Assembly: GCA_026692845.1 (NCBI GenBank)
Contig: JAPLNM010000129.1
Coordinates: 1-64,000, forward strand
Origin: Planctomycetota bacterium
Lineage (GTDB): Bacteria > Planctomycetota > Planctomycetia > Pirellulales > Pirellulaceae
Reading direction: 5' to 3'
DNA length: 64,000 nt
Shown here: piece by piece, positions 21,162 to 28,284 of the stretch
How the letters are laid out: each line of letters opens with the position of its first letter
Position numbering within the stretch: position 1 is the stretch's first letter
Translations under genes and position numbers: made by a program
The notes under the pieces: model-generated
Told to the model about the DNA's origin: nothing
The model's input: the letters and a program-made list of their open reading frames with translations, nothing else
Databases searched by the model: none

Positions 21162-21653
21162 ATGAATGGCAATGCGATCCGATACGCACTGATTTTCGCG
21201 ACCTTGCTCCAGCAGACAGCAGGGGCTGTTTGTTGCTGTGGTTTTGCAAACGTGACCTTGGGTTCTGAGACCCGGCATTGGGCCGTCAGCTCGAAGGAAA
21301 CCGACACGAAAAGTCCTAGGTTAAGTTGCAGCAGGTGCAAGAGCAACGCCAGGAGCATGAAGGCTCAGGATCTCCAAGCCCGTAGCGGCGCAGAGGTGTG
21401 TTCGAACGGGTGCCACTGTCGGTTGGTCAATTCGCAGGTCGCTGTTCAACGCGATCGCATGGAGCTTAAGTGCTATTCGCGATGGCTCGGCAGCGGATTT
21501 TGGACCTGCGTTTTCCTGGTTCCACCTGGACGGGACGACCTAGCTTGCCGCCTTTCGCTCTTAGGCGGTCCACTTTCGTCATCAGGCCAGCTTAATGCTG
21601 CGCCGTTTTCAATGATCGCTCGGCTTTCATGGCTTAGCGTCTGGATGATTTGA
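21162..21653 (+). CDS. Small Cys-rich secreted protein of the metal-efflux locus
   Basis: 163 residues, not recognised as a named family. It begins MNGNAIRYALIFATLLQQTAGA, a good signal peptide, followed at once by CCCGFANV. Further cysteines come in pairs and clusters: CSRC, CSNGCHC, KCYSRW and WTC. The C-terminal third is hydrophobic with few charges. The clustering of Cys with His suggests metal binding in the periplasm, and the gene directly precedes the lipoprotein, adaptor and RND pump genes on the same strand. ATG 21162 is preceded by AAAGG. A role as metal sensor or chaperone is inference. Confidence 0.6.
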   Translation: MNGNAIRYALIFATLLQQTAGAVCCCGFANVTLGSETRHWAVSSKETDTKSPRLSCSRCKSNARSMKAQDLQARSGAEVCSNGCHCRLVNSQVAVQRDRMELKCYSRWLGSGFWTCVFLVPPGRDDLACRLSLLGGPLSSSGQLNAAPFSMIARLSWLSVWMI

Positions 21654-21819: not shown

Positions 21820-22680
21820 ATGAGAAACCCTTTAATCCTAAAGCAACTCTTGGCAGTGGCCATAGGGATCGTCTTAACAAACTCGGGCTGCAATCAAAAA
21901 TCGGAGAATCAAGCCAACGACCGACAACCGATCGGGAAACCAACCGACAACCCTGTTTCCGACCATCAGCACCAGCATGCCGAGGCGTTCCACGGAGGGA
22001 CCATCGTCTCGCTGGGGGCCGATAGCTACCATGCCGAAGCGTTGCTCGAATCGAACGGGACCTTGAGGCTATTCATGCTCGGCAGAGATGATACGAGAGT
22101 TCAGGAAGTCGACTTGCAAACGATCAAGGCGTATGCCAAGCAAGCCGAGGACCTTGAGGTGAAGAACTTGGAGCTCACGCCAGATCCGCAACCGGGGGAT
22201 AGTGCAGGCAAGACCTCTCAATTCGTTGCGGCCATTCCAGCCGATTTGCTCGGCAAATCGATTCGTATCACGATCCCCAATTTGGTGATTTCCGGGGAAC
22301 GCTTCCGGGTCGCATTGGACCTTGCAGCCAACGATAGCCAGTCTACCCATGAGCCGATGGGCAAACCGGTAGTTTCCGGCGATGAGGATGCGCTGTATTT
22401 GACTCCGGGTGGCAAGTACACTTCCGAGGACATAGCAGCCAATGGCAAGACGGTTCCTACGGTGAAATTCAAGGGCATACGCTCCAATCATGACGACAAG
22501 CCCATGCCGGGCGATAGGATCTGTCCGATCTCGAAGACCAAGGCGAACGATCAATTCCTTTGGGTGATCGATGGCAAATCCTATACCTTTTGCTGCCCTC
22601 CTTGCATCGACGAATACGTTCGGTTGGCCAAAGAGCAACCCGATTCGCTTCTTGCACCTGAGGCCTTTATCAAGGAGTAG
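21820..22680 (+). CDS. His/Cys-motif lipoprotein of the metal-efflux operon
   Basis: 286 residues. The ATG at 21820 gives MRNPLILKQLLAVAIGIVLT then NSGC, a lipobox-like cleavage site, so the protein is probably lipid-anchored. After a short linker it has DHQHQHAEAFHGGTIVSLG with YHAEALLE; this His-rich pattern recurs in planctomycete proteins beside RND metal pumps. Near the C-terminus, GDRICPISKTKAND and GKSYTFCCPPCIDEYVRLA form two Cys pairs like a YHS/TRASH-type metal-binding module. A role as periplasmic metal carrier or sensor for the pump is inferred. The stop lies four bases before the GTG of the adaptor, so the genes are translationally close. Confidence 0.75.
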   Translation: MRNPLILKQLLAVAIGIVLTNSGCNQKSENQANDRQPIGKPTDNPVSDHQHQHAEAFHGGTIVSLGADSYHAEALLESNGTLRLFMLGRDDTRVQEVDLQTIKAYAKQAEDLEVKNLELTPDPQPGDSAGKTSQFVAAIPADLLGKSIRITIPNLVISGERFRVALDLAANDSQSTHEPMGKPVVSGDEDALYLTPGGKYTSEDIAANGKTVPTVKFKGIRSNHDDKPMPGDRICPISKTKANDQFLWVIDGKSYTFCCPPCIDEYVRLAKEQPDSLLAPEAFIKE

Positions 22681-22684
22681 AGCC

Positions 22685-24949
22685 GTGTCGCTGAAGTCAC
22701 CTATGCTATGGCTTGCATGGCTCATACTCGCTGGATCGATCGCAGCGCACGAAGGGCACCAAGCGCTGCCGACCAAAGGGGTCGAAATACAACCTCAAAG
22801 TGGAACGTTGGTGCTAAGCGCGTCGGCTCGCGGCGCACTTGCGATTCAGACCGAGGAAGTAGCGCAGCGTCCGGTGCGCCGTTTCCTGAGTGCCTTTGGG
22901 AATTTGGTGGTGCCTTGGAATAACCATGCGATGGTAGGATCCAGTCTCGAAGGCCGGGTCGTTTCGATTTCGGCAATTGCGGGCCAGACGGTTCAGATCG
23001 GCCAGAGTGTCGCGGAAATCGAATCACCGAAGATCGAGTCCTTTCAACGAGAGATACGGGATTTGATTGCAGGCCTGCGATTGGATAAGCAGTTGCTTCA
23101 AGGGGCGCAGGAGGCTAGCACAAGTGGAGCGATACCGATGGCTCGTCTCCTGGAGCTTCAAACGTCCCTATTCCAACGCGAGACGGCTTTGACCATTGCG
23201 AAAGCCAAATGGAAAGGGCTCGGACTTGAGCGTTCCGATTTTGAACGAATGATTGCCAACCCAGACGTCAATCCATCGGTACGTTTGTCGCTTCGGAGTC
23301 CTATTTCTGGAACGATTTTGCACACCGATTTGACGGTGGGGAAATTCGTTAATCTCAAAGAGCACGTTTTGGAGGTGATCGACCTATCGACCCTGTGGCT
23401 GCGCATCGACATCTTGGAAAAAGATTTATCGCGGATTCAGGTAGGCGACGCTGTGGAGTTTTATCCCACAAGCGGTTCGGGAAAAGCGATCCTTGGTACC
23501 TTGAAAGTGATTGAAAAAAGCCTTGACCCAGTCACGCATCTTGCGACGGCTTGGGTCGATCTTCCCAATGGAACCCTTCAGATCGCACCGCTACTTCCCG
23601 GGATGACGGGACAAGTAAAGATCGGTGCACAGAGCACTGTTCCGAAGCTTTCGATTCCGAAATCGGCGTTGGTCCGAGACGGAGCCGAGCGATTCGTTTT
23701 GGTTGAGCAGGAACGCAACGAGAAAGCGTCGGTGTTTCGCAAGATTCCCTTAGCGATAGGAGCACAAAGTGGCGGGATGTGCGAGGTTACGCGAGGGGAA
23801 TTGGTACCCGGGGATCGGGTTTTGACCCAAGGCAGTCGGCAGCTTGGGCATCTTTTCACGCAAGGCGTCTTGAAGCTCAGTCCTGAAGCGGCCGTCGATA
23901 TTGGGCTCAAGACACAAAGCGTTCAGCCGTTGCGGGTTTCCACGACACTCTCGGTCGACGGGGTCGTGAGTCTACCTCCGTCAAAACTTGCCCGAGTCTC
24001 CTCTCAGCTTTCAGGCAGGGTCCATCAAATCCTGATCGATCGTTCGGCGAACGTACGCAAGGGGCAAGCCTTGGCGCTGCTTTCTAGCCCGGAGTTCCAG
24101 GAATTGCAGCTCGATTGCATTCAAGCCAATTTGGAAGTGCGGTTTCGTGAATCTGTTTTGAAAAATATTCGCCAAGGAGGAACCTCGATTCCCCAACGCC
24201 AACGGATTGAAACCGAAAATCAATTGGTTTCGGCTCAAAATCAATTGGAGAATCTAACTCGTCAACTGCGGTTGCTCGGGATAGGCCAAGAGGAGCTCGA
24301 AGCGATGCTTCAATCGCAGCAGATATCGGAATACTATCGGGTTTTAGCGCCCATCGACGGAGTTGTGGTTGGATTTCATAAAGCGATTGGGCATATCGTT
24401 TCGGCCGACGAGGAGCTCTTCGAGATACACGACAACTCCGAGCGATTGGTTGAAGTGTTCGTCTCGGAGAAGGACGCAAATCGGATCCGCAATGGGCAGA
24501 CGCTACGATGCCGATCCTTGGCCGAAGAAGATCGCAGTTATCCGGGCACGGTGATCAGCAGTGGTCAGTCGCTGAGCAATCGCGGTCAGACCCTTTCGGT
24601 ATGGGCCAATGTCCAATTCGATGACGATTCGGTTGTCTTTTACAACATGCTCTGCAGGATTTCGATCGAACTTTCGGAAAGTGCCGATGGGTCGGATGCG
24701 AAGGATGCTTCGGATGCTTTAAGCGATCATTCTGCCATGCTTGCGATTCCTTTGACGAGCGTTTTGCAGGAGGGGAGCCAGACCTACGTATTTATCGCAT
24801 TGACCGATGGGATCGTTGAGCGTCGCCGTGTTAGGCTTGGACACCGCGATGATAGGCATGTGGAGGTGCTCTGGGGCTTGAGTCCGCAGGAAACGGTAGT
24901 GGTTCAGGGGGTTGCGGCCCTGCAGACCGGGTTTGCAGCGATTCAATAA
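22685..24949 (+). CDS. Membrane-fusion protein of an RND metal efflux pump, tandem double adaptor
   Basis: 754 residues, about twice the normal 350-420 of CusB/CzcB. GTG 22685 with AAGGAG before it gives a signal peptide LWLAWLILAGSIAAHEGHQA. Module 1 (about residues 30-395) has GSSLEGRVVSISAIAGQTV and GQSVAEIESPKIESFQ (lipoyl half), a helical hairpin, a second lipoyl half SPISGTILHTDLTVGKFV, a beta-barrel and a membrane-proximal domain. Module 2 (about 400-754) repeats the order: SSQLSGRVHQILIDRSANVRK, GQALALLSSPEFQELQ, a hairpin rich in Gln/Glu/Leu, APIDGVVVGFHKAIGHIV and a barrel. The segment SESADGSDAKDASDAL is a low-complexity insert. This adaptor links the RND pump to an outer-membrane channel. 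The stop is 11 bases before the pump gene. Confidence 0.88.
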   Translation: MSLKSPMLWLAWLILAGSIAAHEGHQALPTKGVEIQPQSGTLVLSASARGALAIQTEEVAQRPVRRFLSAFGNLVVPWNNHAMVGSSLEGRVVSISAIAGQTVQIGQSVAEIESPKIESFQREIRDLIAGLRLDKQLLQGAQEASTSGAIPMARLLELQTSLFQRETALTIAKAKWKGLGLERSDFERMIANPDVNPSVRLSLRSPISGTILHTDLTVGKFVNLKEHVLEVIDLSTLWLRIDILEKDLSRIQVGDAVEFYPTSGSGKAILGTLKVIEKSLDPVTHLATAWVDLPNGTLQIAPLLPGMTGQVKIGAQSTVPKLSIPKSALVRDGAERFVLVEQERNEKASVFRKIPLAIGAQSGGMCEVTRGELVPGDRVLTQGSRQLGHLFTQGVLKLSPEAAVDIGLKTQSVQPLRVSTTLSVDGVVSLPPSKLARVSSQLSGRVHQILIDRSANVRKGQALALLSSPEFQELQLDCIQANLEVRFRESVLKNIRQGGTSIPQRQRIETENQLVSAQNQLENLTRQLRLLGIGQEELEAMLQSQQISEYYRVLAPIDGVVVGFHKAIGHIVSADEELFEIHDNSERLVEVFVSEKDANRIRNGQTLRCRSLAEEDRSYPGTVISSGQSLSNRGQTLSVWANVQFDDDSVVFYNMLCRISIELSESADGSDAKDASDALSDHSAMLAIPLTSVLQEGSQTYVFIALTDGIVERRRVRLGHRDDRHVEVLWGLSPQETVVVQGVAALQTGFAAIQ

Positions 24950-24960
24950 AGGCATCGGAA

Positions 24961-27900
24961 ATGTTCGATCGACTCATACGCTTTTCACTGGATCATCGAC
25001 CACTGGTTTTGTTTTTGGCGGTGGTGTGTGCCTGTGGAGGACTGTGGGAACTTGCGCGAATTCCGATGGATGTTTTTCCTGATTTGAACCGTCCGACGGT
25101 GGCGATCATGACCGAAGCGCCGGGATTGGCTCCTGAGGAGGTCGAACTGCTAGTGACTCGACCCTTAGAGTACGCAATGAATGGGTTGACTGGGGTCGAG
25201 AGGATTCGATCGGCATCGGGGATAGGGCTATCGATCGTATGGGTCGAATTCGGATGGGGAACCGAAATCTATCGTGATCGTCAGATCGTCTTTGAGAGAT
25301 TGGCCACGGCGCGGGAACGGATGGCTGCTGGTACCAATCCGACGATTGCACCGGTTTCGTCGATCATGGGAGAGATCTTGCTGCTAGGGATTCGCCCGTC
25401 GACTCGAATGCGCCAAGTCGGGGGTGAAGATCCGTCGAAAGAGCGAGAGCTTCAGATGGCGATGCGAACCTTTGGCGAGTTTCGGCTTCGCAATCGTTTG
25501 ATGTCGATCCAAGGGGTATCTCAGGTAACCGTCATGGGAGGGATTCTAAAGCAGTACCAGGTCGTCACGTCTCCTGAACGACTCGCTTCGCAAAATATCA
25601 CGCTTGGTCAACTCAGCGCTGCGATTGAAAAAGCCAATGTGCTTTCCGGTGGTGGACTGATGGTACGCGACACCGAGGAATCGATATTGCGGATCAGTGG
25701 CCAATCGCTTTCGCTCAGCGACATCGAGGAGACTCCGGTGATTTGGCGAGAGCAACGTCCCGTGTTGGTTCGCGAAGTTGCCGATGTGCGATTTGGGGGG
25801 CCGATTCAACGCGGGGACGCAGCAGTGCGCGTACGAGACACGCAGAGCAATCGAATCGAGGGTGGCCAAGGGGTCATCCTTGCGGTCCAAAAGCAACCGG
25901 GAGTCGACACCCTTGTGCTGGATCGCAAAATCCAACTGGCGTTGGATTCGATCCAGCTCGAGTTGCCCGAGGGGATGGAATTGGAGCGGCGTTTATTCCA
26001 GCAATCGAGTTTCATCGCGTCGGCCGTTTCGAACGTTTCCGAAGCGGTACAGGACGGGGCGATCTGGGTGGTAGTGATTTTGTTTGTGTTTCTATGGAAC
26101 TTTCGCGTCAGCATTTGTTCTTTGATCGCCATGCCATTATCGATCTTGATGACATTCTTGGTATTTCGATATATGGGAGCCACGATCAACACCATGACGC
26201 TTGGCGGGATCGCAGTAGCGATTGGGGATTTGGTCGACGATTCGATTGTCGACGTTGAAAACATCTTTCGCAGGCTCAAGGAGAATCAACAGCGGATCGA
26301 GGGCGAACGTCAACGTCCGCTCGAGGTGGTCTATCAAGCGTCTAGGGAGGTCCGAGGATCGATCGTCTATGCGACGATGATTGTGGTGTTGGTGGTCATT
26401 CCACTGTTTGGTTTATCTGGGCTTGAAGGGCGAATATTCGCACCTTTGGGCGTTTCCTATATTGTTTCCTTGGTTTGTTCGCTTTTGGTTTCTCTGACGG
26501 TCACTCCTGTAGTCGCGTCGTATCTTCTGCCACGGGCACAATTCCTATTGGACCAACGCGAGACGATCGTAGTGCGTGGGCTCAAAGCGATCGTTCGAAG
26601 GGTTTTGGAATGGACATTGGATCACACCGGTTGGGTATTCGGCGCGACCGCCTTGGGGGTGCTCCTTTCCATAGTCGCAGTTTCGTGGATGGGTGGCTCG
26701 TTCCTTCCTGAGTTTCATGAGGGAAGTTACACCGTCAATTTGCAATGTTCTCCGGGGTCAAGTTTGCAGGAGAGTCGTCGCGTGGCCCAGCGGTGCGAAC
26801 AGATGCTTTTGGAGATACCGGAAGTCGTTTCGCTATCGAGGCGGACGGGGCGTGCTGAACTCGACGAGCATGCCGAAGGAGTCCACTCCTCGGAGATCGA
26901 CATACAGACGCTGCCGAGTCGAGTGGCACTGCGAGGTTTTTGGCCGGCCTTGGCTCGCCGCATCCCCGGCTTGCAACACCTAGGATATCGGGTCCAAGGA
27001 CGCCCCTCGGAAAAGGTGATCGAGCAGATACGCGACACGGTAACGCGTATCCCCGGGGTCCAAGTCAACATTGGCCAACCGATCTCCCATCGTTTGGACC
27101 ATATCATGTCGGGGGTGCGAGCGCAGATCGCTGTGAAAGCCTTCGGGGAGGACCTTCGGCAACTTCGCGAGTTCAGTCATGATATTCTCGATGCGATCGG
27201 GCAGGTACCGGGTGTGGTGGATTTGCAAGCCGAGCCGCAGGTGGAGATATCGCAGATTCGCCTGCAGATCAAGCGTCAAGAAGCGGCAAGGTATGGCCTG
27301 AGCCCTGGCGACTTGGCCGACTTGCTCCAGACAGCTTACAAGGGTCGGATCGTTTCGCAGGTTCTCGATGGGGAGCAGTTCCATGACTTGGTCGTCTGGT
27401 ATGACGAAGAGTCCCGTAGTTCCCCTGAGAGGATTCAGTCAACGATTCTCGACACCCCCTCTGGGCGTCGGGTTTCGTTGGGTCAGGTCGCTGAGGTGCT
27501 CGATACGACTGGCCCGAACACCATCCATCGCGAAGGTGTTCAGCGCCGGATCGTGGTGCAATGCAACGTGCAAGGGCGTGATTTATCGAGTGTGGTCCAT
27601 GACATTCAGGCAAGATTGAAACCCACCGAGGAGCGAATGGCTCGACTCGCCGGGAGTTATCGCTTGGAGGTCGGCGGGCAGTTTGAAGCCCAGCAGCAAG
27701 CCAACGCGCGTCTGGCGCTTTTTGGCTCGTTGGCGATCATCGCGATCGTGTTGTTGCTCTATCAGTGCTTGAATTCGTGGTCTGCTGCGTTCCAAATCTT
27801 GGTCAATGTTCCGCTTGCTGCAATCGGCGCGGTGGCCATGCTCTTGTGGTTCCAGAGGCCTGACCCATCGGTATTTACAGGGGTGCCTTGGTGGTCCTGG

Positions 27901-28284
27901 CCGATCGTATGGGTGCAATCGATCACGCTCTCGGTAGCCCACTGGGTTGGCTTTATCACGCTCTTAGGGATTGTCAGTCGCAATGGGATTTTGATGATTT
28001 CGCACTACCAGCATTTGATGAAATACGAGGCAGAAGCCTTTAGCAAGGAGATGATCATCCGAGGGAGTCTTGAGCGACTCACGCCGGTGATGATGACCGC
28101 GTTTACGAGTTTCGTCGGACTTTTGCCGTTGCTGATGGGGGCCGATGAATCGGGCAAGGAGATTTTGCATCCGTTGTCGGTGGTGGTCTTTGGGGGGATG
28201 TTGTCCTCGACGATCCTCGATCAATTGGTCACCCCTGCGCTGTACTGGCGGTTTGGGGACCGATCCAGCAAGCGGCCTGATTGA
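24961..28284 (+). CDS. RND heavy-metal efflux pump, CzcA/CusA-type
   Basis: 1107 residues, a typical length. LARIPMDVFPDLNRPTVAIMTEAPGLAPEEVE is preceded by the first membrane helix; the helix-4 motif reads GGIAVAIGDLVDDSIVDVENIFRRL, with acidic residues for proton relay. Other marks are VVILFVFLWNFRVSICSLIAMPLSILMTF, FLPEFHEGSYTVNL at the second porter domain, GFITLLGIVSRNGILMISHY and LVTPALYWRFGD. It belongs to the HME-RND family, which exports Cu, Ag, Zn, Co, Ni or Cd in exchange for protons. The helix-4 motif differs from classical CusA or CzcA, so the metal is not assigned. It forms an operon with the adaptor. Confidence 0.92.
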   Translation: MFDRLIRFSLDHRPLVLFLAVVCACGGLWELARIPMDVFPDLNRPTVAIMTEAPGLAPEEVELLVTRPLEYAMNGLTGVERIRSASGIGLSIVWVEFGWGTEIYRDRQIVFERLATARERMAAGTNPTIAPVSSIMGEILLLGIRPSTRMRQVGGEDPSKERELQMAMRTFGEFRLRNRLMSIQGVSQVTVMGGILKQYQVVTSPERLASQNITLGQLSAAIEKANVLSGGGLMVRDTEESILRISGQSLSLSDIEETPVIWREQRPVLVREVADVRFGGPIQRGDAAVRVRDTQSNRIEGGQGVILAVQKQPGVDTLVLDRKIQLALDSIQLELPEGMELERRLFQQSSFIASAVSNVSEAVQDGAIWVVVILFVFLWNFRVSICSLIAMPLSILMTFLVFRYMGATINTMTLGGIAVAIGDLVDDSIVDVENIFRRLKENQQRIEGERQRPLEVVYQASREVRGSIVYATMIVVLVVIPLFGLSGLEGRIFAPLGVSYIVSLVCSLLVSLTVTPVVASYLLPRAQFLLDQRETIVVRGLKAIVRRVLEWTLDHTGWVFGATALGVLLSIVAVSWMGGSFLPEFHEGSYTVNLQCSPGSSLQESRRVAQRCEQMLLEIPEVVSLSRRTGRAELDEHAEGVHSSEIDIQTLPSRVALRGFWPALARRIPGLQHLGYRVQGRPSEKVIEQIRDTVTRIPGVQVNIGQPISHRLDHIMSGVRAQIAVKAFGEDLRQLREFSHDILDAIGQVPGVVDLQAEPQVEISQIRLQIKRQEAARYGLSPGDLADLLQTAYKGRIVSQVLDGEQFHDLVVWYDEESRSSPERIQSTILDTPSGRRVSLGQVAEVLDTTGPNTIHREGVQRRIVVQCNVQGRDLSSVVHDIQARLKPTEERMARLAGSYRLEVGGQFEAQQQANARLALFGSLAIIAIVLLLYQCLNSWSAAFQILVNVPLAAIGAVAMLLWFQRPDPSVFTGVPWWSWPIVWVQSITLSVAHWVGFITLLGIVSRNGILMISHYQHLMKYEAEAFSKEMIIRGSLERLTPVMMTAFTSFVGLLPLLMGADESGKEILHPLSVVVFGGMLSSTILDQLVTPALYWRFGDRSSKRPD

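Follow-up and report, generated by a model that had tools for sequence, protein, structure and literature searches.

A natural double periplasmic adaptor, with two complete modules in one chain, beside an HME-type RND pump of Planctomycetota

Periplasmic adaptors of tripartite pumps are known to act as six units for every three pump subunits, the functional unit being the dimer (PMC4446572, PMC4338810). Natural support for the adaptor dimer has come from the TriA/TriB pair and from the fused protein DSY0927 (PMC4446572, PMC4338810, PMC13328181), and CusB is seen on CusA as a trimer of dimers (PMC4446572). The window considered here, a stretch of 64,000 nucleotides from a planctomycete of the family Pirellulaceae, encodes a chain of 754 residues directly upstream of an RND pump. 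A sequence-only reading had proposed that this chain holds two complete adaptors. The locus thus raises the question of whether one gene can supply the adaptor dimer as a single covalent unit, from where its halves have come and what each of them might do in the pump.

The proposal of two complete adaptors is borne out by the sequence, by profile searches, by structure prediction and by 56 distinct homologues. Both motifs that had been quoted, one for each module, are present in the sequence. The Pfam family HlyD_D23 (PF16576) matches the protein in two stretches (E-value 2.8e-52; 177.6 bits against a cutoff of 30), as does the NCBIfam model RND_mfp, TIGR01730 (212.7 bits against a cutoff of 94.9), and every complete homologue likewise gives two full module matches. 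The two modules share a sequence identity of 21% over 303 residues (E-value 1e-16), and alignment of profile to profile runs end to end over 338 columns (E-value 3.8e-57), a likeness far beyond chance.

An AlphaFold2 model of the window protein, for which the input included 21 homologues, has a pLDDT of 84.2 and a pTM of 0.72. As had been anticipated, two sets of lipoyl, hairpin and barrel domains are seen in it rather than one, and the membrane-proximal (MP) domain, which the earlier proposal had not listed among the parts, is also complete in both halves. In the model the hairpin helices span residues 115-146 and 152-178 in module 1 and residues 469-497 and 504-530 in module 2, and the modules are joined by a linker of about 8 residues between structured elements. 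When compared with structures in the PDB, residues 394-754 resemble CusB from the CusBA complex (Z 15.4), with an rmsd of 10.4 over 313 residues which indicates that the domain angles differ between the two. The first half resembles MacA (Z 15.3, rmsd 4.9 over 301 residues) and ZneB (Z 14.3). The tips of both hairpins align with the tips of ordinary adaptors. As regards the RLS tip motif, which serves in docking to the channel, module 1 has R-x3-L and the exact motif is absent from module 2; this motif is not universal among adaptors (PMC4446572). Of the features of the RND-type adaptor family, the window protein has a profile score above the cutoff, the four domains, each occurring twice, and an adjoining RND pump. 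The score for the CzcB/NccB adaptor subfamily TIGR00999 is below its cutoff (167.2 bits against 319.3).

The window stems from a genome assembled in 182 contigs, which might prompt the suspicion that two genes have been joined by the assembly, or that an ordinary single adaptor has been misread. This explanation is refuted, and we regard its probability as negligible, because 56 distinct double adaptors have been collected from independent genomes, including single-contig ones (G006, G192 and G424), and the model of the window protein has two full domain sets. The related genomes have also been searched for the halves as two separate genes. No such pair has been identified, and where copies are split or incomplete, in G011 and G012, they are cut by contig ends.

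The features of the locus are collected in the table. The GTG codon at position 22,685 is better supported as the translation start than an ATG at 22,571, since the ATG would give an overlap of about 110 nucleotides with the upstream gene, whereas the GTG follows, at a spacing of 7 nucleotides, an AAGGAG that falls within the final codons of that gene. The start VSLK is also common to the window protein and its homologue of 87% identity.

Table. Features of the double adaptor locus (positions in the window) and the type B members of the family
Feature	Position	Strand	Basis
Small Cys-rich protein, QQTAGAVCCCG	21162..21653	+	Seen by eye; no Pfam family
Putative lipoprotein, lipobox-like LTNSGC, C-terminal CPIS...CCPPC segment	21820..22680	+	Homologue upstream in type A loci
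Likely ribosome-binding site AAGGAG, just within the 3' end of the upstream gene	22672..22677	+	Reading of the sequence; inference
Double periplasmic adaptor, 754 aa, GTG start	22685..24949	+	ORF, HMM matches, half-versus-half alignment, AlphaFold model
Predicted signal peptide, residues 1-21	22685..22747	+	Hydrophobic N-terminal helix in model; position of conserved HEGH
HEGH, residues 22-25, predicted mature N-terminus	22748..22759	+	HxxH conserved (55 of the 56 distinct double adaptors)
Adaptor module 1, residues 40-397	22802..23875	+	Alignments, profiles; model resembles ZneB and MacA
Module 1 helical hairpin, residues 115-178, tip near GAIPMAR	23027..23218	+	AlphaFold secondary structure; tip alignment
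Adaptor module 2, residues 398-754	23876..24946	+	Alignments, profiles; residues 394-754 resemble CusB of CusBA
Module 2 helical hairpin, residues 469-530, tip near SIPQRQR	24089..24274	+	AlphaFold secondary structure; tip alignment
Module 2 membrane-proximal domain, C-terminal strands, residues ~685-754; absent from type B	24737..24946	+	Models, homologue comparison
CusA/CzcA-family RND pump, 1107 aa, partner of the double adaptor	24961..28284	+	TIGR00914; co-occurrence
Type B double adaptors	L030-L033, L075-L077, L079, L082-L084

The adjoining pump is assigned to the HME family of CusA/CzcA-like RND proteins (TIGR00914) with a score barely over the cutoff (702.7 bits against 701.45), and its proton-relay helix carries VDDSIVDVEN. 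It is likely to export metal. A copper pump of the CusB type was considered and is rejected by the sequence: the CusB model NF007303 scores the window adaptor at 57.6 bits, under its cutoff of 390, and no methionine is found at the columns of the CusA triad (M573, M623 and M672) in the window pump or in the homologues shown. Copper as the substrate is nevertheless suggested by neighbouring genes in some genomes, where a CopA-like P-type ATPase is encoded close to the locus.

The double adaptor is tied to one clade of pumps. Of the 37 pumps that share 56% identity or more with that of the window, 35 are adjoined by a double adaptor or by a piece of one cut by the contig end, and the remaining two (G019:C66 and G014:C366) start at a contig end. 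Four pumps of the sister clade, with identities of 46-48% (G041, G032, G042 and G033), are in contrast accompanied by single adaptors of 484-574 residues. The pump of G019:C66 (L175) is 93% identical to that of the window, and the double adaptor of the same genome shares an identity of only about 31% with the window protein; this pump may be a contaminant introduced by binning, or else an additional copy that was acquired. In G006 a pump beside a double adaptor (L047:11816-15241) is split into frames of 777 and 344 residues, with an in-frame TAG. It is perhaps a pseudogene, and a second intact copy is encoded in the same genome.

In the type A loci a homologue of the putative lipoprotein is encoded directly upstream of the adaptor in all 17 that have enough flanking sequence, and the RND pump follows downstream wherever the contig extends far enough. 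The Cys-rich C-terminal segment of the lipoprotein shows a weak likeness, under the Pfam cutoffs, to the metal-binding TRASH/YHS domains. In several related loci the gene for the lipoprotein is likewise preceded by one for a small protein with a CCC motif, similar to that of the window (for example L037:9020-9505 and L048:5691-6161). An ECF sigma factor together with a zf-HC2 anti-sigma factor has been identified near the operon in L048 (6530-7980), L041, L042, L045, L047 and L051, which suggests that expression of the operon may be under the control of stress. No gene for an outer-membrane channel was recognised in the neighbourhoods as judged by size and sequence, with few of the neighbours compared against Pfam. 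Genes of the OEP family are situated elsewhere in the genome from which the window stems.

Whether the halves had duplicated or had come from different adaptors is a question on which the phylogeny bears. In a tree with 32 single adaptors, the first and second modules of the double adaptors together form one clade (support 99/95), within which the first modules are grouped at 100/98 and the second modules at 85/28. When closer planctomycete single adaptors are added, the first modules again form one clade (100/98), the second modules are grouped at 98/94 with the exception of one unstable long-branch row, and 39 single adaptors are set apart as a separate clade (99/97). As the first modules and the second modules each hold together in the trees, the fusion is old and has been inherited as a unit, and the halves had parted before the divergence of the sampled planctomycetes.

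A fusion of two adaptors of different origin, such as a gene pair of the TriA/TriB kind, would account for an identity of just 21% between the halves, and the sister relation of the halves is weakened once two Bacteroidota single adaptors and long branches enter the tree. Such an origin is considered unlikely, however, for the clade of both modules excludes the 32 single adaptors, and forcing the modules into one clade in the presence of 42 single adaptors is not rejected (AU test, p 0.45). Profiles of module 2 also score module 1 at E-values of 1e-35 to 1e-58, mostly above the single adaptors of the same genome (best about 1e-40), and a pair of separate genes has not been found. Duplication inside the family is therefore favoured and a union of two unrelated adaptors is not; a single old tandem duplication is the simplest origin, favoured by the sequences though not proven, with a fusion of two related genes as the less simple alternative.

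That the two halves differ from each other, as the sequence-only reading had allowed, is supported mainly by a group of 11 among the 56 double adaptors, referred to here as type B, in which module 2 has lost its MP domain (model positions 1-24 and ~270-343). This speaks against equivalence of the two halves. In an AlphaFold model of a type B protein (pLDDT 82.1) module 2 stops once the barrel is complete, and a linker of about 30 residues is disordered; the lipoyl domain, the barrel and the hairpin of this module are still present. The MP domain of module 1 is kept in all the members of the family. This domain has been linked to substrate presentation and to activation of the transporter (PMC8277102). 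In the four type B loci inspected, the upstream gene encodes a small His-containing protein and not the lipoprotein. Residues peculiar to module 1 include D215 and H227, with His at position 227 in 92% of the first modules and in none of the single adaptors, while module 2 is looser at many sites that are conserved in module 1.

A further sign that the halves differ is the HxxH motif. Present in 55 of the 56 double adaptors, it comes right behind a small residue where the signal peptide is predicted to end, and at this N-terminal place it is absent from the single adaptors in the compared set. Cleavage just before HxxH is a reading of the sequence, by which the mature chain of the window protein would begin with HEGH after export, and the motif could form an N-terminal metal site made up of the free amine and His1.

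Taken together, we consider it probable that the adaptor of this HME-type RND tripartite pump of a Pirellula-like planctomycete is a covalent dimer, in which two full modules are joined head to tail through a short linker, most likely following an old tandem duplication. Three chains would encircle the pump trimer and so form the usual six-module ring, with modules 1 and 2 alternating, and the hairpin tips of both modules would contact a trimeric outer-membrane channel whose gene is situated at another place in the genome. Module 1 is likely to be the half that receives metal and stimulates the pump, since its MP domain is always kept and the single HxxH tail adjoins it. Module 2, with its MP domain lost in 11 of 56 proteins, is likely to serve chiefly in sealing and docking. 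The neighbouring lipoprotein may sense metal or hand it over. The position in the ring, the stoichiometry and the roles of the modules are inferred, and the usual six-unit ring on three pump subunits, now covalently paired, is the simplest reading, ahead of the different build of the tripartite pump that the sequence-only reading had raised.

It is also conceivable that the modules are not placed side by side in one ring, with one of them in the ring and the other reaching a neighbouring complex or serving only to bind metal or as an anchor. The freer evolution of module 2 at many sites conserved in module 1, and the type B proteins in which this module has no MP domain, are what one would expect in that case. 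On the other hand, the lipoyl domain, the barrel and the hairpin are kept in both modules, in type B as well, the linker of about 8 residues in the window protein is short, and both modules are under purifying selection (dN/dS of 0.06-0.14 in both halves for pairs of close homologues of informative divergence). Such an arrangement is thus thought quite improbable, and the covalently paired ring is preferred. For the stricter form of that ring, with specialised modules in the order 1-2-1-2-1-2, one metal-loading tail and, in type B, one MP domain per pump subunit, the chances are placed slightly below even. If it holds, the pump would need three and not six membrane-proximal contacts, and the lineage would show in nature how two adaptor positions may split their work.

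The idea of a fused adaptor has a precedent, as the fused dimeric adaptor DSY0927 of Desulfitobacterium hafniense is already on record. Like the window protein it is one chain with two adaptor units (PMC4446572, PMC4338810), but it belongs to a monoderm host and an ABC-type transporter, whereas an RND pump in a two-membrane cell is concerned here. Compared by description only, its halves belong to different adaptor types and the first of them lacks a coiled coil, while in the window protein each half has a hairpin and the two are related along their full length. TriA and TriB of TriABC-OpmH in Pseudomonas aeruginosa are, as here, two non-identical adaptors serving one RND pump, and different roles have been reported for them (PMC4338810, PMC13328181). 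They are encoded by separate genes, are 36% identical and belong to a drug pump, in contrast to the single gene, the identity of 21% between halves and the metal-type pump seen here. CusB of CusCFBA and ZneB share the fold of each half, and the pump is of the HME type here too. They are however single units, whereas the present adaptor is double, its pump has no methionine triad and the operon has no dedicated channel gene. Engineered tandem fusions of AcrA (Xu et al. 2011a, as cited in PMC4446572) are described there as covalent dimers functional in vivo; these are laboratory-made from two identical copies, and the window protein is natural with diverged copies. The open papers searched contain no description of fused double adaptors in RND pumps. 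A split of roles between the two adaptors flanking each RND subunit is hard to test with identical gene copies. In the double adaptor the halves are diverged and fixed in one chain, so that each can be mutated alone at a defined stoichiometry, and the type B proteins represent a natural experiment in which one membrane-proximal domain per pair has already been removed.

The 56 distinct double adaptors are all encoded in Planctomycetota. Of 26 further genomes from the genus of the window, 23 encode them, and they occur in other families of the order too, with 33 positive among 296 genomes sampled within the order and 11 among 392 sampled within the phylum, other classes included. The spread is patchy, and even three genomes of the same genus (G003, G020 and G023) have no double adaptor. 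The closest named record is a metagenome-assembled genome of 'Pirellula sp.', which encodes the homologue with 87% identity and is the sole relative in a scan of genome contigs. In a plasmid collection the matches listed are all to single adaptors, with both halves of the query falling on the same 1-1.2 kb. One further adaptor (L119, in G040:C11) has a single module preceded by about 360 residues of unknown sequence.
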